Origin: Synechococcaceae bacterium WB9_2_112
GTDB taxonomy: Bacteria > Cyanobacteriota > Cyanobacteriia > PCC-6307 > Cyanobiaceae
Assembly (NCBI GenBank): GCA_010027605.1
Contig: RGUW01000006.1
Span: 1 to 33,351 of the forward strand
DNA: 33,351 bases
Direction: 5' to 3'
Positions 20,334 to 30,285 of the stretch are shown here, piece after piece. The number at the start of each line of letters is the position of its first letter. The first letter of the stretch is position 1. A program made the position numbers and the translations under genes. The notes beneath the pieces were generated by a model. It saw nothing but the letters and a program-made list of their open reading frames with translations. It was not told the origin of the DNA and did no database searches.

Positions 20334-22442
20334 TCAGCCCTTGTGCCTGGCCTGGATCAGCGTGTGTCTGACCCGTTGGGGCAGCGCTTTGCCCAGGGCC
20401 TGCTGAAACTGCTGCTCCAGCCAGCGGCGCTGGTCTGCGGACTTGAGCGTTCGCTTCAGCAATGCCCCAAAGGGCTGCTCGGCCCCGAACCAGCGCGCCA
20501 GCATCGGCGGCTGCAGCAGCAACTGCAGGGGTTCCTCCCAGCTCTCGCGGCTCAGCTGCCAGGGCGGGTCGCCCAGCAGGCTGGCTGGATCGATCATGTC
20601 TGCCTGCAACCAGTCGGTCTCGGCGGCAGCCAGCTGGGCAAGGTTGCGCTGCAACGGGGCATCGGCGCTCAGGCCCCCCAGCTCCAGCAGGCCGCCCACC
20701 GGACCCAGCAGGGGAGTGCTGTGCAGCAGCCGCAGTTCGGCCTGGGGTGCCAGCAGGGCGCTGATCTGCTCCAGCCACTGCTGCTGGGCCGCTGGTTCGC
20801 CGGGTAGCTGGATCTGGCGGCCCGCCAACCGTTCGAAAGGGCCTTCGAGCCCCGCCAGGCCCACCACCACCTCGGGCTGGCGCAGGGCATCCAGCACCTG
20901 CAACTGGGCCCGCAGCCGCTGTTGGTCTTCAGGGGTGTTGACGCTGATCACCACCTGGCCTTCCGGGGTCTGCTCGAGGGGATCCAGGGCCCACAGCAGG
21001 GAGCGGGCGCCAAGAATCAGCACCCGCTCGTGGCGGCGCCAGGTGCCCGTCTGCCAGAACCGGCGGCGCAGCCGATCGAGCCGCTCGCCCTCGGCGACGG
21101 CGCTGCGCGCCAGCCAGCGCTGCAGCTCGGGCTCGGCGGGGCTGTGGCTCAGCACCTCGGCCTGGTCGGCGGCTGTCTCGGCGGCTGCCGCCAGCTGGGC
21201 CGCCCGGCGTTGCTGCAGGCGCTGGCGCAGCTGTCCTTCCCAGTGCTCGGCGTAGGCGTGGGGGTAGCGGTAGCCGACCCCATCGCCAAAGGCCGCGCCG
21301 TCGCGGTTGGCGTCGCGCAGGTGGCTGGGCACCTGCTGCCTGCTGCTCTGCCGAACGGCCTTGAGGGCATCGAAAAAGCCCAGCACGCTGTTGCTCTTGT
21401 CGGCGCCGGCCAGATACAGGGCCGCCTGGGCCAGGGGGTAGAGGCCCTCGGGCAGGCCAACCCGCTCAAAGGCGGCGGCGCAGGCTTCGACCACCACAAT
21501 CGCCTGGGGGTCGGCGAGGCCGATGTCTTCGCCCGCGGCGATGAGCATGCGCCGAAAGATGAAGCGCGGGTTCTCGCCCGCTTCGACCATGCGGGCCAGC
21601 CAGAACAGGGCCGCATCGGCATCGCTGCCCCGCAGCGATTTGATGAAGGCGCTGATGGTGTCGAAGTGGGCATCGCCCTGCTTGTCATAGAGAACCGCAC
21701 GCTGCTGAATCGACTCTTCGGCGATGGCCAGGTCAATGGCGATCACGCCGTCGTCGTTGACGGGTGTGGTCTCGACCGCCAGCTCCAGGGCATTGAGCAG
21801 GCTGCGGGCATCGCCGCCGGCCACGTCGATCAGGTGGTCGACGGCTTCGTCGCTGATGGCGACCTGGCGGTTGCCGTAACCCCGTTCGTTGTCGACCAGC
21901 GCGCGCTGCAACAACTGCCGCAGATGCACCGCTTCGAGCGGCTGCAGCCGAAACAGACGCGAGCGGCTCACCAGGGCCTTGTTGACTTCAAAGAAGGGGT
22001 TTTCGGTGGTGGCGCCGATCAGGTTGACGGTGCCGTTCTCAACCCACGGCAGCAGGGCATCCTGCTGGGCGCTGTTGAAGCGATGCACCTCGTCGATGAA
22101 CAGGGTGCTGCGCAGACCGTGACGCTCAAGCCGCGCCCGCGCGGCCTCGACCTCGGCCCGCAGGTCCTTGACCCCGGCCAGCACGGCATTGAGGCTGCTG
22201 AAGTGGGCCCGGGTACTGCCGGCGATGATGCGGGCCAGGGTGGTCTTGCCCACGCCCGGTGGGCCATGCAGGATCAGGTTCCCGACCCGGTCGGCGGCGA
22301 TGGCCCGTCGCAGCAGGCGCCCCGGCCCCAGGATCGCTTCCTGGCCGACAAAGTCGTCGAGGCCGCGTGGCCGCATGCGATCGGCCAGGGGGGCAAGGCC
22401 CTGCAGCAGGGTGTCGCCGTGGTGGCTGAACAGATCGCTCAC
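20334..22442 (-). CDS. rarA: RarA-type AAA+ ATPase with C-terminal extension
   Basis: A 702-residue protein. Residues 1-430 are a replication-associated recombination protein A (MgsA/RarA), related to clamp-loader ATPases, which acts at stalled replication forks. Walker A GPPGVGKTT is at 60-68, Walker B LFIDEVH at 114-120, sensor 1 IGATTENPFF follows, and the tetramerisation part includes LYLAGADKSNSV and GYRYPHAYAEHW. Residues 430-702 form an extra domain that begins like a Rossmann fold (RVLILGARSLLWALDPLEQT) and continues with LVGLAGLEG-type repeats and an ARWFGAEQPFG stretch. This fits the RarA/unknown-domain fusion known in cyanobacteria. It is divergent from the efflux operon, with only 41 bases between starts. 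Confidence 0.88.
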   Translation of the reverse strand: MSDLFSHHGDTLLQGLAPLADRMRPRGLDDFVGQEAILGPGRLLRRAIAADRVGNLILHGPPGVGKTTLARIIAGSTRAHFSSLNAVLAGVKDLRAEVEAARARLERHGLRSTLFIDEVHRFNSAQQDALLPWVENGTVNLIGATTENPFFEVNKALVSRSRLFRLQPLEAVHLRQLLQRALVDNERGYGNRQVAISDEAVDHLIDVAGGDARSLLNALELAVETTPVNDDGVIAIDLAIAEESIQQRAVLYDKQGDAHFDTISAFIKSLRGSDADAALFWLARMVEAGENPRFIFRRMLIAAGEDIGLADPQAIVVVEACAAAFERVGLPEGLYPLAQAALYLAGADKSNSVLGFFDALKAVRQSSRQQVPSHLRDANRDGAAFGDGVGYRYPHAYAEHWEGQLRQRLQQRRAAQLAAAAETAADQAEVLSHSPAEPELQRWLARSAVAEGERLDRLRRRFWQTGTWRRHERVLILGARSLLWALDPLEQTPEGQVVISVNTPEDQQRLRAQLQVLDALRQPEVVVGLAGLEGPFERLAGRQIQLPGEPAAQQQWLEQISALLAPQAELRLLHSTPLLGPVGGLLELGGLSADAPLQRNLAQLAAAETDWLQADMIDPASLLGDPPWQLSRESWEEPLQLLLQPPMLARWFGAEQPFGALLKRTLKSADQRRWLEQQFQQALGKALPQRVRHTLIQARHKG

Positions 22443-22483: not shown

Positions 22484-23608
22484 ATGCCTGCCGGTAAGCC
22501 AGGGTTCTCCGGACTCGGGCCGCTCGTCGTGACGGCCCTGATCCTGACGGCCTGCTCGGGTCGGGGTGAGCAGGCCGGTCGTCGACCCCTGCCGGTGGCC
22601 ACCCAGCCGGTGACGCCGGCCACGTTCACCGACAAGGTCGAGGCGATCGCCACCCTTGAGGCCGAGCGCGAGGTGCAACTGGCCGCTCAGGTCAATGGAC
22701 GGGTGATCCGGCTGCTGGTTCGCCAGGGTCAGGTGGTGCAGAAGGGGCAGTTGCTGCTGGTGCTTGATCAGAGCCAGTTGCAGGCCGAGCTGGCCACGCT
22801 GCGGGCCCAGATGCTGACCGACAAGCTCAACTTCGAGCGCTATGAGCGCCTCGTGCGCGAGGGTGCGGCCAGCGCCATTCAGCGGGATCAATTCCGCCAG
22901 GCGGCGATCGCTTCCCGCCAGGCCCTGTTGGCCAGGCAGGCCGATCTGGCTTTTCGTTATGTGCGCGCTCCCCAGGCGGGCACCGTTGGCGAGATCAATC
23001 TCAAGCCCGGCGATGTGTTGCAGGCCGGCGTGCCGTTCACCCGGTTGGTGAGCAACAGCGCTCTCAATGCCGAGATTGAGCTGCCCGCCAATCTGGTAGG
23101 CACCCTGCGGGTCGGGATGCCGGTGGAGCTCCATGCCCCAGGCAGCAGCGCCGCTGAGCTGCGCACACGCATCAGCGCCATCGAGCCGTCGGTGGCGACG
23201 ACGACGCAGTTGTTGATGGCGCAGGCCCCGGTGCGTGATCCGTCGCCGCAGTGGCGCAACGGTCTGCGGGTGCGGGCCGATGTGCTGCTGGGCAACCGCC
23301 AGCATCTGGCGGTTCCCTTTGCCGCGGTCACCCGGCTCGCCGATCAGAGTTTCGTGTATGTGGTCGGTAACCGCGAGCAACTCAGGCGTCGCCCCGGCAG
23401 GGCCGATCTGAGTGCGCTGGCGGCCCTGCCCCCCGCCACCCGTTTTGCGCTGCAGATCCCTGTGCAGCTGGGACTGCTGCAGGACGGGCGCTACCCGGTG
23501 CTCGCAGGCCTGACGGCTGGCCAGCGGGTGATCACCTCAGGTCTGCTGCAGTTGCGTCATGGCATGCCGGTGAAACCGCGTCGACCAGGTAAGGCGGTTT
23601 CGAAGTAA
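22484..23608 (+). CDS. RND efflux periplasmic adaptor lipoprotein (first of two)
   Basis: A 374-residue membrane fusion protein. A lipoprotein signal ends in LTAC with Cys24 as the lipid attachment site. The lipoyl half-motifs (VQLAAQVNGRVIRLLVRQGQ and VRAPQAGTVGEINLKPGDVL) flank a helical hairpin with LERYERLVREGAA-like sequence, and a beta-barrel and membrane-proximal domain follow. It links an inner-membrane RND pump to an outer-membrane channel. It ends 24 bases before a second adaptor gene and is the first gene of the operon. Confidence 0.88.
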   Translation: MPAGKPGFSGLGPLVVTALILTACSGRGEQAGRRPLPVATQPVTPATFTDKVEAIATLEAEREVQLAAQVNGRVIRLLVRQGQVVQKGQLLLVLDQSQLQAELATLRAQMLTDKLNFERYERLVREGAASAIQRDQFRQAAIASRQALLARQADLAFRYVRAPQAGTVGEINLKPGDVLQAGVPFTRLVSNSALNAEIELPANLVGTLRVGMPVELHAPGSSAAELRTRISAIEPSVATTTQLLMAQAPVRDPSPQWRNGLRVRADVLLGNRQHLAVPFAAVTRLADQSFVYVVGNREQLRRRPGRADLSALAALPPATRFALQIPVQLGLLQDGRYPVLAGLTAGQRVITSGLLQLRHGMPVKPRRPGKAVSK

Positions 23609-23632
23609 CTTGCGGCCAAATGCCCCGCAGTT

Positions 23633-24760
23633 GTGCGTCATTCGCCCATCAAGCTGGTTCCGCTGCTGCCTGTGTTCGCCCTGTCGGCCTGCGCACCTCA
23701 AAGCCAGGGACGTGCGCCGCTGGTGGTGCAGGTTGAGCAGGTCGGCGATGCCACCTTCATGCCCGGCATCGAAGTGGTCAGCCGACTCGAATCGACCACC
23801 AACGTGGCCCTGCGCCCCGAAGTGGATGGCCGGGTGGTCAAGATCCTGGCCGTGCAGGGGCAACAGGTGAAGGCCGGCCAGCCGATCCTGGTGCTCGACA
23901 ACGTGCAGCAGAGCGCCAACCTCAATGCCAGCCAGGCCCAGGCCCGCCGCGATCGCATCAATGCCGAGCGTTACATCTTCCTGAATCAGCAGGGAGCCGT
24001 CTCGGCCCTGCAGCGCGACTATTACGTGACCGAGGCGATCCGCAGTGCCGATCAGGTCAAGGCCAATGCGGCGAACCTTGGCTACAAATATGTGACTTCG
24101 CCGATCGCCGGGGAAATCGGTGACCTCGACACGGTCAAGCTGGGCGATTACGTGCGCCAGGGCCAGGCGATCACAGGAATCGTCGACAACAGCAACCTCT
24201 GGACCCTGATGGATGTGCCGGCCACCCAGGCCTCCCAGGTCCGCCTGGGCCAGACAGTGCAGTTGAAGACCCAGGGCAATCCGCCGGTGACAGGCAACGG
24301 CAAGGTGGTCTTCATCTCGCCTTATTTCGGGGTGAGCGGCGATCAGTCTTCGCCCAACACGGTGCTGGTCAAGGCGGAATTCCCCAATCTCACCGGCAAG
24401 TTGAAGACCGGGCAATTCGTGCGCAACCGCATCGTCACCAGCACCACCCGGCAGCTTTCGGTGCCGGTGCAGGCCGTGATGATGCAGGCCCAGCAACCCT
24501 TCGTCTACCGGATCGTGCCGTTGTCGGCAGCGTTGCCGAAGATCAAGACCTCGACCCAGATCCCCGACGCGACCAAGGCCAGACTCGAGAAGCTGCCGCC
24601 CAACACCCCCATCGTGGTCCAGACCGCCGTGCAGCTTGGGGCCCTTCAGAACAACCGTTACCCCCTGATTTCAGGCCTGAGCACCGGGGAGCGCATCGTG
24701 ATCAGCAACACGGCGCTGTTGCGTTCGGGCATGCCGGTCCAGATCGCCAACGCCAACTGA
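23633..24760 (+). CDS. RND efflux periplasmic adaptor lipoprotein (second of two)
   Basis: A 375-residue membrane fusion protein related to, but clearly different from, its upstream neighbour. The lipobox is LSAC with Cys20. The lipoyl half-motifs (VALRPEVDGRVVKILAVQGQ and VTSPIAGEIGDLDTVKLGDY) flank a short hairpin containing DRINAERYIFLNQQGAVS. The beta-barrel and membrane-proximal parts are complete. It starts with a GTG at 23633 and ends 10 bases before the pump gene. Confidence 0.88.
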   Translation: MRHSPIKLVPLLPVFALSACAPQSQGRAPLVVQVEQVGDATFMPGIEVVSRLESTTNVALRPEVDGRVVKILAVQGQQVKAGQPILVLDNVQQSANLNASQAQARRDRINAERYIFLNQQGAVSALQRDYYVTEAIRSADQVKANAANLGYKYVTSPIAGEIGDLDTVKLGDYVRQGQAITGIVDNSNLWTLMDVPATQASQVRLGQTVQLKTQGNPPVTGNGKVVFISPYFGVSGDQSSPNTVLVKAEFPNLTGKLKTGQFVRNRIVTSTTRQLSVPVQAVMMQAQQPFVYRIVPLSAALPKIKTSTQIPDATKARLEKLPPNTPIVVQTAVQLGALQNNRYPLISGLSTGERIVISNTALLRSGMPVQIANAN

Positions 24761-24770
24761 GGACCGCTCG

Positions 24771-27700
24771 ATGTCTCTTTCCGACAATTTCATCAAGCGG
24801 CCCGTTCTGACCACGGTCTGCAGCATCCTGATCGTGCTGATCGGCATCATCGCGATTCCGACGCTGCCGATCGAAAACCTTCCCAATATCGCCCCGCCGT
24901 TGATTCAGGTGACCGCCAATTACGGCGGTGCCAACTCGGTCGTGACCGAGCAGGCCGTCACCAACCCCCTGGAGCAGCAGATCAATGGTGTGCCGGGGGC
25001 GGCCTATATCTCTTCGACCAGCTCCAATACCGGTCAGAGCACGATTCAGGTTTATTTCGACGAAGACACAGATATCAGTATTGACCAGGTGAATGTGCAG
25101 AACCGGGTCTCTCTGGCGATGCCGCAGCTGCCCCAGCAGGTGTCGGCCACGGGTGTCTCGGTGATGCAGAGCACCCCATCGATTCTGCTGGCTTATCAGG
25201 TCACATCGAGTCATGGCCAGTTTGATGCCTCCTATCTCAACGGTCTGATCTACGAGCAGCTCTACTACCAGTTGGAGCGGGTGCCCGGAGTCGCCCAGGT
25301 CAACCTGCTGGGTGGCAGCAACCCAGCCTTCTGGTTGTTTGTGGACCCCGACCGCCTGACCGCCAACCAGCTCACCGCCGATCAGGTGGTGTCTGCTGTC
25401 AAAACCCAGAACAGTGTTGCTGTCGGTGGTTTGGTGGGCGGACCGCCAGCGGGTGGAGATCAGAAATTTGCCTACCCCATTCTCGTCACCGACAACGGCA
25501 ACCTTGTTTCGGTCGAACAGCTCAACGATCTGATCGTCGGCAAATCACCCCAGGGCAACCTTCTGCGCCTGCGCGACGTGGGGCAGGCCACCTACGGCTT
25601 CAACACCTTTGCCCAGCAGGCCGTCAGTGTTGATGGTTATCCATCGATCACCGTTGGAGTCTTTCAGACGCCCGAGAGTAACGCGCTTGATGTGTCTCAA
25701 GCCGTTGTGAGTGTGATGAACCAGTTCGCCCAGACGGTGCCGCCTGGGGTGCAGGTCACTGAGATCTACAACATCGGTCAGTTCATCGAATCGGCCGTCG
25801 ACGGTGTAACCGATGCACTCGGTCTGGCGATCGTTCTGGTGCTGGTCATTCTGTTCCTCTTCCTGCAGAACTGGCGCGCCACGGTCGTGCCCAGCCTGGC
25901 CATTCCCATTTCGCTGGTCGGCACCTTTGCTTTCATCAAGGTCTTCGGATTCTCGATCAACCAGCTGACCCTGCTGGGTCTGGTGCTCGCCACCGGCCTG
26001 GTGGTGGACGACGCCATTGTTGTGATCGAGGCCGTCTCCAAGAACCTTGAGGATGGCATGAGTCCGCGCAAGGCCGCCCTCGAGTGCATGGGCACCCTGA
26101 TCGGCGCCATCATTGCCACTTCGCTGGTGCTGATGGCGGTCTTTGTGCCGGTCGCGTTCTATCCGGGTGGCATCGGCATCATCTACAAGCAGTTTGCGCT
26201 GACGATCGCCTTCTCGATCGCCATCTCAACCTTCAATGCCTTGACGTTCTCGCCGATGCTGTCGGCCCTGATCCTCCGATCTGAGAAACCCCCCAGGCCC
26301 CAGGGCTGGGGCTGGACGGTGGGTGGTGTCGTCGTCGGTCTGGCCTTCGGCAGGTTCAGCGCCGCCTCCTTCGGCATCGGTGCCTATGTCTTCGGCGTGC
26401 TGCTGTTCGGTTTCGCCGGTAGCCGCCTGGCCCTGATCTTCGATCGCTTCAACACGTTCTTCGCCTGGTTGCAGAGCAGCTACATCAAGCTGCTCCACGT
26501 GCTGATCCAGAAACGGCGTTACATCCTCGCCGGTCTGGCCGGCGGCATCGTGCTCACGGTGATTGCCTTTTCGGCGCTACCAACGGCCTTCATCCCCGAG
26601 GAGGATCAGGGTTATGGCCTTGGCATTTTTCAGTTGCAGAATGGCGCTTCCCTCAGCCAGACCCAGAAGACCGGGCTTGAGATCGCCAAGGTGCTCAAGA
26701 CTGAAGACGACATCGTCGCTGCTTCGGTCATCAGTGGTTATGGATTCAATGGCGCGAGTCCTGACCAGGGAGTGTTCTTCTTTGGTCTCAAGCCGTTGGA
26801 AGAGCGCAGCGGCACCGACCAGAAGGCACCGGCCATCGTCGAACGCCTCAACGCCAAGCTCTCCAAGCTGAGCAGCGGCCTGGCGGTCGCCGCCCAACCC
26901 CCTGCCATCCCCGGATTCTCAGCCCAGGGCGGCTTCTACTTCCAGTTCAACGACCTCAGCAACGGCGCCTATACCTTCCCCCAGCTTGACGGTCTGGCCC
27001 AGGAGCTGGTGGCCGCAGGAACTGCCTCCGGGCAATTCTCCAGTCTCTACACCCAGTTCATCCCCAGTGCGCCGGCGTTCGGTCTCAAGGTTGATCGCTC
27101 GATCATGGGGGCCCTGAACATCGACTTCCAGCAGGCGATGCAGACCATTGCCGTGCTGGCCGGCGGCAACTATTCGGGACTCACTTATGAGAACGGCCAG
27201 GTGCGCAACATCTATGTTCAGTCAGAAGCATCGGGCCGCAGCACGTTGGATGACGTGTTGTCCTACTACGTGCGCAACAAGGACAACAAACTGGTTCAGG
27301 TGAGTGAGTTCGCCTCCACCGAGCTCACCAGCGCGCCGCCTGTCATCAGCCACTACAACCTCTACCGCACCGTTCTCGTGCAGGGCGCCGAGGCGATCGG
27401 CAAGAGCTCAGGTCAGGCCCTCACAGCGATTCAGCAGATCTTCAAGCAGCAGAACTTCAACAACATCGGCTACGCCTTCACCGGTCTGGCGGCGCTGCAA
27501 CTCTCGGCCGGAAGCGCCAGCGTGCTGGTCTTCGGTCTTGGTGTTCTGATTGTCTACCTGGTGCTCTCGGCCCAGTACGAGAGCTATGTGACCCCGGTGA
27601 TCATTCTGATGACCGTGCCCCTGGCCATGCTCGGAGCTCTGGTGTTTCTGGCGTTGCGCTCGATCGATCTCAACATCTATGCCCAGGTGGGTCTGGTCAC

Positions 27701-28052
27701 GTTGATCGGTCTGGCCGCCAAGAACGGCATTTTGATCGTCGAGGTGGCCGAGCAGCACCTCGAGGCCGGCATGACGATCACCGAGGCCGCCATCGCAGCA
27801 GCGGAATCGCGCATGCGACCGATCCTGATGACGGCCATTGCCTCGTTGGCCGGTTTCCTGCCGCTGGTGGTCGCCACCACCGCCGGTGCCAATAGCCAGC
27901 AGTCTCTGGGCACCGTGATCTTCGGTGGTCTTCTGGTCGCCACGGTGCTGTCACTCGGGGTGGTCCCGCCGTTCTATGTGGCGATCAAGACCCTTGAAGC
28001 CCGTTGGTTCCCCGAACAACCGGAAGAGCAGCCCCAGCTGCCGAGCGCATGA
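24771..28052 (+). CDS. RND efflux pump inner-membrane permease
   Basis: A 1093-residue AcrB/HAE1-family proton-driven drug exporter. TM1 starts at FIKRPVLTTVCSILIVLIG. The proton-relay Asp pair is at 413-414 (VVDDAIVVIE in TM4), and the Lys of TM10 is at 984 (IGLAAKNGILIVE). The two large periplasmic loops are present (after TM1 and after TM7). Between TM6 and TM7 an extra hydrophobic stretch (about residues 515-555) is longer than in AcrB. The start is an ATG with an AGGA ribosome-binding site that overlaps the adaptor stop. No outer-membrane channel gene lies in the window. Confidence 0.93.
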   Translation: MSLSDNFIKRPVLTTVCSILIVLIGIIAIPTLPIENLPNIAPPLIQVTANYGGANSVVTEQAVTNPLEQQINGVPGAAYISSTSSNTGQSTIQVYFDEDTDISIDQVNVQNRVSLAMPQLPQQVSATGVSVMQSTPSILLAYQVTSSHGQFDASYLNGLIYEQLYYQLERVPGVAQVNLLGGSNPAFWLFVDPDRLTANQLTADQVVSAVKTQNSVAVGGLVGGPPAGGDQKFAYPILVTDNGNLVSVEQLNDLIVGKSPQGNLLRLRDVGQATYGFNTFAQQAVSVDGYPSITVGVFQTPESNALDVSQAVVSVMNQFAQTVPPGVQVTEIYNIGQFIESAVDGVTDALGLAIVLVLVILFLFLQNWRATVVPSLAIPISLVGTFAFIKVFGFSINQLTLLGLVLATGLVVDDAIVVIEAVSKNLEDGMSPRKAALECMGTLIGAIIATSLVLMAVFVPVAFYPGGIGIIYKQFALTIAFSIAISTFNALTFSPMLSALILRSEKPPRPQGWGWTVGGVVVGLAFGRFSAASFGIGAYVFGVLLFGFAGSRLALIFDRFNTFFAWLQSSYIKLLHVLIQKRRYILAGLAGGIVLTVIAFSALPTAFIPEEDQGYGLGIFQLQNGASLSQTQKTGLEIAKVLKTEDDIVAASVISGYGFNGASPDQGVFFFGLKPLEERSGTDQKAPAIVERLNAKLSKLSSGLAVAAQPPAIPGFSAQGGFYFQFNDLSNGAYTFPQLDGLAQELVAAGTASGQFSSLYTQFIPSAPAFGLKVDRSIMGALNIDFQQAMQTIAVLAGGNYSGLTYENGQVRNIYVQSEASGRSTLDDVLSYYVRNKDNKLVQVSEFASTELTSAPPVISHYNLYRTVLVQGAEAIGKSSGQALTAIQQIFKQQNFNNIGYAFTGLAALQLSAGSASVLVFGLGVLIVYLVLSAQYESYVTPVIILMTVPLAMLGALVFLALRSIDLNIYAQVGLVTLIGLAAKNGILIVEVAEQHLEAGMTITEAAIAAAESRMRPILMTAIASLAGFLPLVVATTAGANSQQSLGTVIFGGLLVATVLSLGVVPPFYVAIKTLEARWFPEQPEEQPQLPSA

Positions 28053-28146
28053 CTGCTGTGCTGGTGCTGAGGTGTGCGGGTTCTCGGCGTGAAGGCTTGC
28101 TCGCTGCCTCGGCGACGGGCGATGCGCCGATCGGCTGGTGTTGACG

Positions 28147-28572
28147 ATGGGGTCTGGGGTGAGCCGCGCAAAACCCTTCGGCTTTGATGCCTTGGCGCGC
28201 ATTGTCTATGTTCACGCGGCGATGTCGTTGGTCGTTCTGACATCAGTGCTGCAGCACGCCTTGCAGCGTGGTGGCCAGGCTGCTGCTGTATCTGCCGGCG
28301 TTGGACTCGTGATCGCGGTTTCTGGCTGCGCGGCCATGGTGGGCGTCGCCAGGAATCGGTCCTTGCGCGCACTGGTGATGCTTCGTTGTCTTCTCTGGGT
28401 CACGGTTGCCAAGGTTGGGCTTGGCTTGATCACCGTTCTCAGGACCAGTGACAGTGCAACAGCGGAATCGTTGCGCGCAATCCTCCTGAATGAAGCTGTT
28501 CTGATTCCCCTGGCGATCTACTGGTCGAGGCGCATTCACACCACGTACCTCGCTGCAGTCGCGAAGACTTAG
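28147..28572 (+). CDS. Four-helix membrane protein of unknown function
   Basis: A 141-residue protein with about four hydrophobic segments: ARIVYVHAAMSLVVLTSVL, AAVSAGVGLVIAVSGCAAMV, LVMLRCLLWVTVAKVGLGLI and LLNEAVLIPLAIYW. No family is recognised. The ATG at 28147 is chosen; a GTG at 28138 would add three residues. It follows the pump gene by 94 bases on the same strand. Its Asn-Glu-Ala and Arg-Cys pairs inside helices are unusual but not diagnostic. Confidence 0.6.
   Translation: MGSGVSRAKPFGFDALARIVYVHAAMSLVVLTSVLQHALQRGGQAAAVSAGVGLVIAVSGCAAMVGVARNRSLRALVMLRCLLWVTVAKVGLGLITVLRTSDSATAESLRAILLNEAVLIPLAIYWSRRIHTTYLAAVAKT

Positions 28573-28614: not shown

Positions 28615-30285
<1,671 letters not shown>

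Follow-up and report, generated by a model that had tools for sequence, protein, structure and literature searches.

The tandem adaptor locus of Synechococcaceae bacterium WB9_2_112 probably combines an ordinary efflux pump, MFP2-RNDA, with a working adaptor, MFP1, that mainly serves the unlinked pump RNDC, much as AcrD borrows AcrA. The window, the whole stretch of 33,351 nucleotides that was analysed, is carried by contig C406 of a 73%-complete assembly of 460 contigs, and its nearest named relatives are picocyanobacteria. The features of the locus are as follows.

20334-22442, minus strand: MgsA-type AAA ATPase, left border of the site (profile match; same border in many relatives)
22484-23608, plus strand: MFP1, first RND-type periplasmic adaptor lipoprotein, 374 aa (ORF, profile match, model, Foldseek)
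22544-22555, plus strand: putative MFP1 lipobox LTAC, Cys24 (read off the translation)
22772-22957, plus strand: MFP1 alpha-hairpin, residues 97-158, tip R119-L123-S130 with RLS spacing (model, alignment)
23633-24760, plus strand: MFP2, second RND-type adaptor lipoprotein, 375 aa, GTG start (ORF, profile match)
23681-23692, plus strand: putative MFP2 lipobox LSAC, Cys20 (read off the translation)
24771-28052, plus strand: RNDA, HAE-1 type RND permease, 1093 aa (profile matches, invariant residues)
26307-26423, plus strand: RNDA insertion, predicted extra helix pair, residues 513-551, between the permease halves (model, hydropathy)
28615-30276, minus strand: phosphoglucomutase, right border of the site (profile match; same border in many relatives)

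The three ORFs of 374, 375 and 1093 aa lie on the same strand with intergenic gaps of 24 and 10 bp, and the two lipoboxes can be read from the translations, in agreement with the earlier description of two lipobox adaptors preceding one RND permease in a tight cluster. Both adaptors scored above the RND_mfp (TIGR01730) cut-off of 94.9 bits (MFP1, 196.8; MFP2, 166.1) and are paralogues with 35% identity (124/358), and RNDA matched ACR_tran (PF00873) with 931 bits. The suggestion that the outer-membrane channel is encoded elsewhere was borne out by an OEP profile search of the 73%-complete genome, in which all eight TolC-type matches lay on other contigs and none on C406. Behind RNDA, a hydrophobic 144-aa ORF (28138-28572, plus strand) had no Pfam or NCBIfam match; relatives with 36-41% identity occupy the equivalent place in some genomes, and none was seen in the close relative L043.

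Three further working labels are used for the pumps of relatives. RNDB is a second RND pump, approximately 48% identical to RNDA, which many relatives encode behind an MFP1-type adaptor; RNDC, a third one with approximately 38% identity to RNDA, is located elsewhere in the genome; and A' denotes a variant of the A-type pump, 54% identical, that occupies the same position on the chromosome. A locus with the order MFP1-MFP2-pump is called tandem. Among relatives, the arrangements were MFP1-MFP2-RNDA, MFP1-RNDB-MFP2-RNDA, MFP2-RNDA-MFP1-RNDB, MFP2-RNDA alone, and an MFP1-type adaptor directly behind RNDC. The three-gene order, whose conservation across picocyanobacteria the earlier note had proposed to check, recurs in many relatives and is conserved in several picocyanobacterial lineages. 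This recurrence, together with the pN/pS of 0.055-0.301 for MFP1 in seven close tandem pairs, indicates that the tandem gene order is not due to chance. The MFP1-MFP2 distance was 21-125 bp in 29 of 30 tandem loci and 491 bp in the other, and the RNDB-MFP2 distance was 335-499 bp in 28/28 loci; these counts cover A-type loci only, with gene starts assigned from the homologous genes of the window and with overlap between named and unnamed loci. The short MFP1-MFP2 gaps look as if co-expression with RNDA were kept, which counts against borrowing.

Tandem loci fell on both sides of the midpoint root in the border-gene tree. In the MFP1 tree they formed a basal clade, and the deep lineages g33, g25 and g45 were also tandem; judged from these trees, the tandem arrangement may be ancestral. 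Tandem genomes also clustered in the RNDA tree, where one clade of 10 spans two genera; RNDA recombines, which limits this tree as a test of partnership, and the clustering partly opposes the borrowing reading. Exact duplicates were removed before counting, as were up to nine near-identical named loci for the MFP1 tree. The MFP trees leave out proteins shorter than 300 aa, and the RNDA tree leaves out A'-type pumps and pumps shorter than 950 aa. Some loci appear in both the named and the unnamed sets (L043 and G127, for example), and locus counts are therefore not genome counts. The no-MFP1 class of the pN/pS analysis includes loci cut at contig ends and was not used for counts. A further RND type with an opposite-strand MFP1-type adaptor (L192, L206, L207) was seen in G082, G030 and G113. 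Locus L119, from a record titled as a Bifidobacterium breve MAG, has the cyanobacterial pump and the phosphoglucomutase and probably comes from a mislabelled or contaminated assembly.

The earlier note had suggested a possible mixed-adaptor pump similar to TriABC. In a pump of this kind, MFP1 and MFP2 would jointly make up RNDA's adaptor ring and play separate roles in it. The compact three-gene cluster with its short gaps agrees with such a pump, as do the purifying selection on MFP1 and the identity between the adaptors, which is close to the 36% given for TriA and TriB (PMC4338810). The tandem is also kept in several genera, even where RNDB has its own adaptor (8/21 tandem genomes). However, the distribution of the genes across genomes and their exchange, described below, make this reading unlikely.

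To examine co-occurrence, 151 genomes of the family were searched and read from four match tables, and all family counts hold among the matches listed. At least one of the four components (A-type pump, RNDB, RNDC, MFP1-type adaptor) was present in 79 genomes; G002 and G128 stand outside these with only partial or unlisted RND matches each, the best adaptor match being 34% identical to MFP1 in G002 and only a weak one in G128. Each of the 70 genomes that carry an MFP1-type adaptor also has RNDB, RNDC or both. Conversely, the adaptor was found in 0/6 genomes with an A-type pump and neither RNDB nor RNDC; these comprise five genomes of genus g19 and G022 (62% complete) and are not independent of one another. 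The g19 pumps are close RNDA orthologues (85-86% identical), and no MFP1-type adaptor was found in their genomes. Where RNDB or RNDC occurred without an A-type pump, the adaptor persisted in 6/6 firm genomes (G076, G089, G112, G124, G131, G147); a seventh genome with RNDB/RNDC and MFP1, G125, has an unsure A-type status, its A-type matches being unlisted. RNDB/RNDC without a full MFP1-type match, which counts against borrowing, was seen in three fragmented assemblies (G074, G103 and G144; 76-88% complete, 270-520 contigs). Fisher's p was 3e-7 when MFP1 was compared with RNDB/RNDC and 1.0 when it was compared with the A-type pump, both values being descriptive and ignoring relatedness. Across orthologues, MFP1 thus follows RNDB/RNDC and not RNDA. 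Both the RNDA orthologues without any MFP1-type adaptor and the adaptors without an A-type pump argue against a two-adaptor ring. Of the 21 tandem genomes, 13 lack RNDB and eight have it separately; RNDC was present in 20, although it is so widespread that finding it in a tandem genome carries little weight by itself. It was not detected in G087, which counts against borrowing.

A second set of 40 named genomes is not independent of the family set, with which it shares the tandem genomes G151, G152, G154, G155, G156 and G168 in addition to G171, G172, G173, G174 and G182; G185 is the same genome as G029, as judged, like the other overlaps, by contig numbers and coordinates. The absence of RNDB in this set was judged from the listed RNDC matches, among which RNDB shows approximately 46-49% and RNDA approximately 39-41% identity. 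RNDC was present, in three cases only in part, in all 18 named genomes that carry MFP1 at the RNDA locus; they include L049, whose MFP1 is frame-split. No MFP1-type adaptor was seen beside RNDC in these 18 genomes, the side behind RNDC being off the contig in G162 and G166. When MFP2-RNDA stood alone with RNDC and no RNDB was among the matches listed, the adaptor lay directly behind RNDC in 7/10 genomes (G175, G176, G177, G179, G180, G181, G183), and six of these pairs were also observed at the DNA level. Both genes are located at contig ends in the remaining genomes (G169, G170, G184), and one G170 match to RNDC was unlisted. No MFP1-type adaptor was found in the five genomes in which neither RNDC nor RNDB was seen (G171-G174 and G182); these are the g19 genomes of the family set. 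The remaining seven have a complete or partial RNDB. In six of them (L084, L086, L091, L093, L097, L108), which are Synechococcus or Prochlorococcus strains, the MFP1-type adaptor is adjacent to RNDB; the seventh is L062.

In the genome of the window, RNDC is split over two contigs: C427 ends with its front part, and C335 begins with the remainder; neither fetched piece had an MFP match, and the assembly is broken at this point. Neither RNDB nor a second MFP1-type adaptor was found, with approximately a quarter of the genome possibly missing. Because RNDC is present while RNDB and a second MFP1-type adaptor were not found, MFP1 most likely serves RNDC. Adaptor sharing is known in that AcrD works with AcrE as well as AcrA (PMC8446912), and an alternative is that MFP1 is promiscuous, serving RNDC and also RNDA in mixed or separate rings. 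The tight position of MFP1 upstream of MFP2-RNDA would suit this alternative, and RNDC is mostly without an adjoining adaptor; for instance, no adaptor match was found in 9.2 kb around the intact RNDC of G045 (one contig, 99% complete). This alternative supposes a contact between MFP1 and RNDA, and we give it a low probability.

Two adaptor-pump cassette types swap at one site within genera (L322 v L317, L318 v L232, L320 v L230, L217 v L304); the swapped pumps are 54% identical and the neighbouring genes stay. For G035 and G102 of genus g36, identities were 97% for MFP1 and 90% for RNDB as opposed to 45% for MFP2 and 54% for the pump. Similarly, the pairs of g48 and g31 had 85 and 83% for MFP1, 78 and 89% for RNDB, 45 and 44% for MFP2, and 54 and 55% for the pump, respectively. 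In the tandem genus g59, G087 and G059 were 75% identical in MgsA, 62% in MFP1 and 43% in MFP2. Differences at 4-fold sites were compared in 11 close pairs. Between L223 and L225, the differing share was 0.02-0.04 in MgsA, 0.11-0.24 in MFP1, 0.40-0.48 in MFP2 and 0.50-0.58 in RNDA, and between the window and L043 it was 0.21-0.23, 0.23-0.28, 0.20-0.37 and 0.34-0.55, respectively. Exceptions were L103 v L120, with a weak contrast, the RNDB-linked pair L226 v L229, with none, and L113 v L122, in which the jump sits in MgsA and the front of MFP2. By this comparison, MFP2-RNDA tends to behave as one unit and MFP1 as a separate one. The exchange of MFP2-RNDA apart from MFP1 therefore argues against close co-adaptation of MFP1 and RNDA, and hence against the TriABC-like pump, although contact between them would still be possible.

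The AlphaFold2 model of MFP1 (mean pLDDT 85.9, pTM 0.62) has helices at residues 97-126 and 131-158, and its best Foldseek matches were the TMexCD1 adaptor and AcrA and MexA chains. R119 and L123 were invariant across 43 sequences, S130 falling under the 90% list, and the R-L-S spacing of the hairpin tip can be read off the translations of both adaptors; an "RLSD" signature is named in PMC6975555. D413, D414, K984, R1014, R1016 and T1021 of RNDA were invariant in 30 sequences, and those at D413/D414/K984/T1021 appear, matched by eye, to be the proton-relay residues of AcrB. The insertion at residues 513-551 of RNDA was modelled with a mean pLDDT of 70 (m5afcee7deb8f), and hydropathy agrees. 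RNDB (L088:899-4354) has a longer hydrophobic insertion between the permease halves, and hydropathy revealed no such stretch at this position in RNDC.

MexJ was the best solved-structure match for both adaptors. Chain 6vej_P, taken here as TriABC, ranked behind MexJ and a MacA-MexA chimera as the third match of MFP1 (8.8e-14), and MFP2 had no match to it at E<=0.001; the MFP1 match counts for a TriABC-like pump. The tight gaps, the deep tandem lineages, the RNDA clades and this match fit either selection for co-expression or a two-adaptor pump. At the 16 columns that separate MFP2 from the RNDB/RNDC-linked adaptors, 34 tandem MFP1s had the RNDB/RNDC-type residue in 438/544 cells, the MFP2 residue in 49/544 and another residue in 57/544, a pattern much of which shared ancestry alone would yield. 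No column was fixed differently between tandem MFP1s and RNDB/RNDC-linked adaptors. Tandem MFP1 showed no drift toward MFP2 residues, which again disfavours a joint ring. Contact residues have been tied to adaptor-pump choice (PMC6975555).

The low pN/pS values given above indicate that MFP1 has been kept. This bears on a further explanation, that MFP1 is a decaying remnant of a four-gene MFP1-RNDB-MFP2-RNDA cluster in which RNDB has been lost. Four-gene clusters do occur at the same site in relatives, one tandem clade (L221, L082, L103, L113, L120, L122) is nested among RNDB-linked adaptors, and in the MAG locus L049:1721-4827 MFP1 is split across two frames, as a pseudogene or an assembly error. 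Nevertheless, given the purifying selection and the retention of the hairpin tip residues and the fold, decay is very improbable. RNDB loss as the whole story was rejected, as it fits only the nested clade and is opposed by the deep tandem lineages and by three genomes with both a tandem locus and a separate adaptor-RNDB pair (G082, G087, G062). Faster MFP1 evolution after RNDB loss was also considered. At 75-80% MgsA identity, the median MFP1 identity was 65.5% in 18 tandem pairs and 85.3% in two RNDB-linked pairs; the tandem pairs look less constrained, but two RNDB-linked pairs are too few, and this candidate was dropped.

Taken together, we favour the reading in which MFP2-RNDA would be an ordinary tripartite HAE-1 efflux pump using a TolC-family channel encoded elsewhere. 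MFP1 would be a functional adaptor of a different subfamily, with RNDB and RNDC as its partner pumps in this cyanobacterial family, and here it would most likely serve the unlinked RNDC, having stayed clustered with MFP2-RNDA. Gene content, arrangements, co-occurrence, cassette exchange and purifying selection were observed; the partnership of MFP1 with RNDC, the co-transcription of the genes, their assembly into pumps and the export of substrates are inferred. The mixed-adaptor pump of the earlier note is thus possible but not favoured, as the g19 genomes have RNDA without MFP1, MFP1 tracks RNDB/RNDC, and MFP2-RNDA is replaced as a pair; the comparison points instead toward an adaptor that belongs to another pump, an outcome that the note had itself set against its proposal. 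A combination of readings, which we consider rather unlikely, is that one operon with two adaptors lets the unlinked RNDA and RNDC be expressed or assembled together: MFP1 would serve RNDC and could enter the RNDA ring, adaptor supply would set which pump is active, and MFP2-RNDA cassettes would recombine beside a resident MFP1.

Tandem adaptors are easily annotated as TriABC-like, and the comparison across one family points to another pump's adaptor kept in the cluster; complexes should accordingly not be inferred from gene order. These results suggest adaptor borrowing and adaptor-pump cassette exchange as a picocyanobacterial pattern. Among the titles listed from an open-licence library, none dealt with tandem RND adaptors of picocyanobacteria, and neither the borrowing nor the TriABC-like reading is categorically new, asymmetric assemblies such as MdtABC or TriABC being described as broadly represented in bacterial genomes (PMC4338810).

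Compared with known systems, MFP2-RNDA resembles HAE-1 pumps of the MexAB/AcrAB type in its adaptor-permease pair, its ACR_tran family and the TolC-type channels in the genome, and differs from them in the predicted extra helix pair of RNDA. TriABC-OpmH of Pseudomonas aeruginosa likewise has two distinct adaptors before one RND gene and an unlinked channel, with a similar adaptor identity (35% here and 36% there). However, both of its adaptors are required (PMC4338810), whereas the MFP1-type adaptor was not found in the g19 genomes, which have close RNDA orthologues, and accompanies other pumps. The likeness to AcrAB plus AcrD of Enterobacteriaceae lies in a pump that is encoded without an adaptor: AcrD uses AcrA (PMC6975555; PMC8446912), and RNDC would here borrow the adaptor of another pump's cluster in the same way. 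AcrA serves both AcrB and AcrD, whereas the cluster described here carries two different adaptors, the one that belongs to its pump and a further one.
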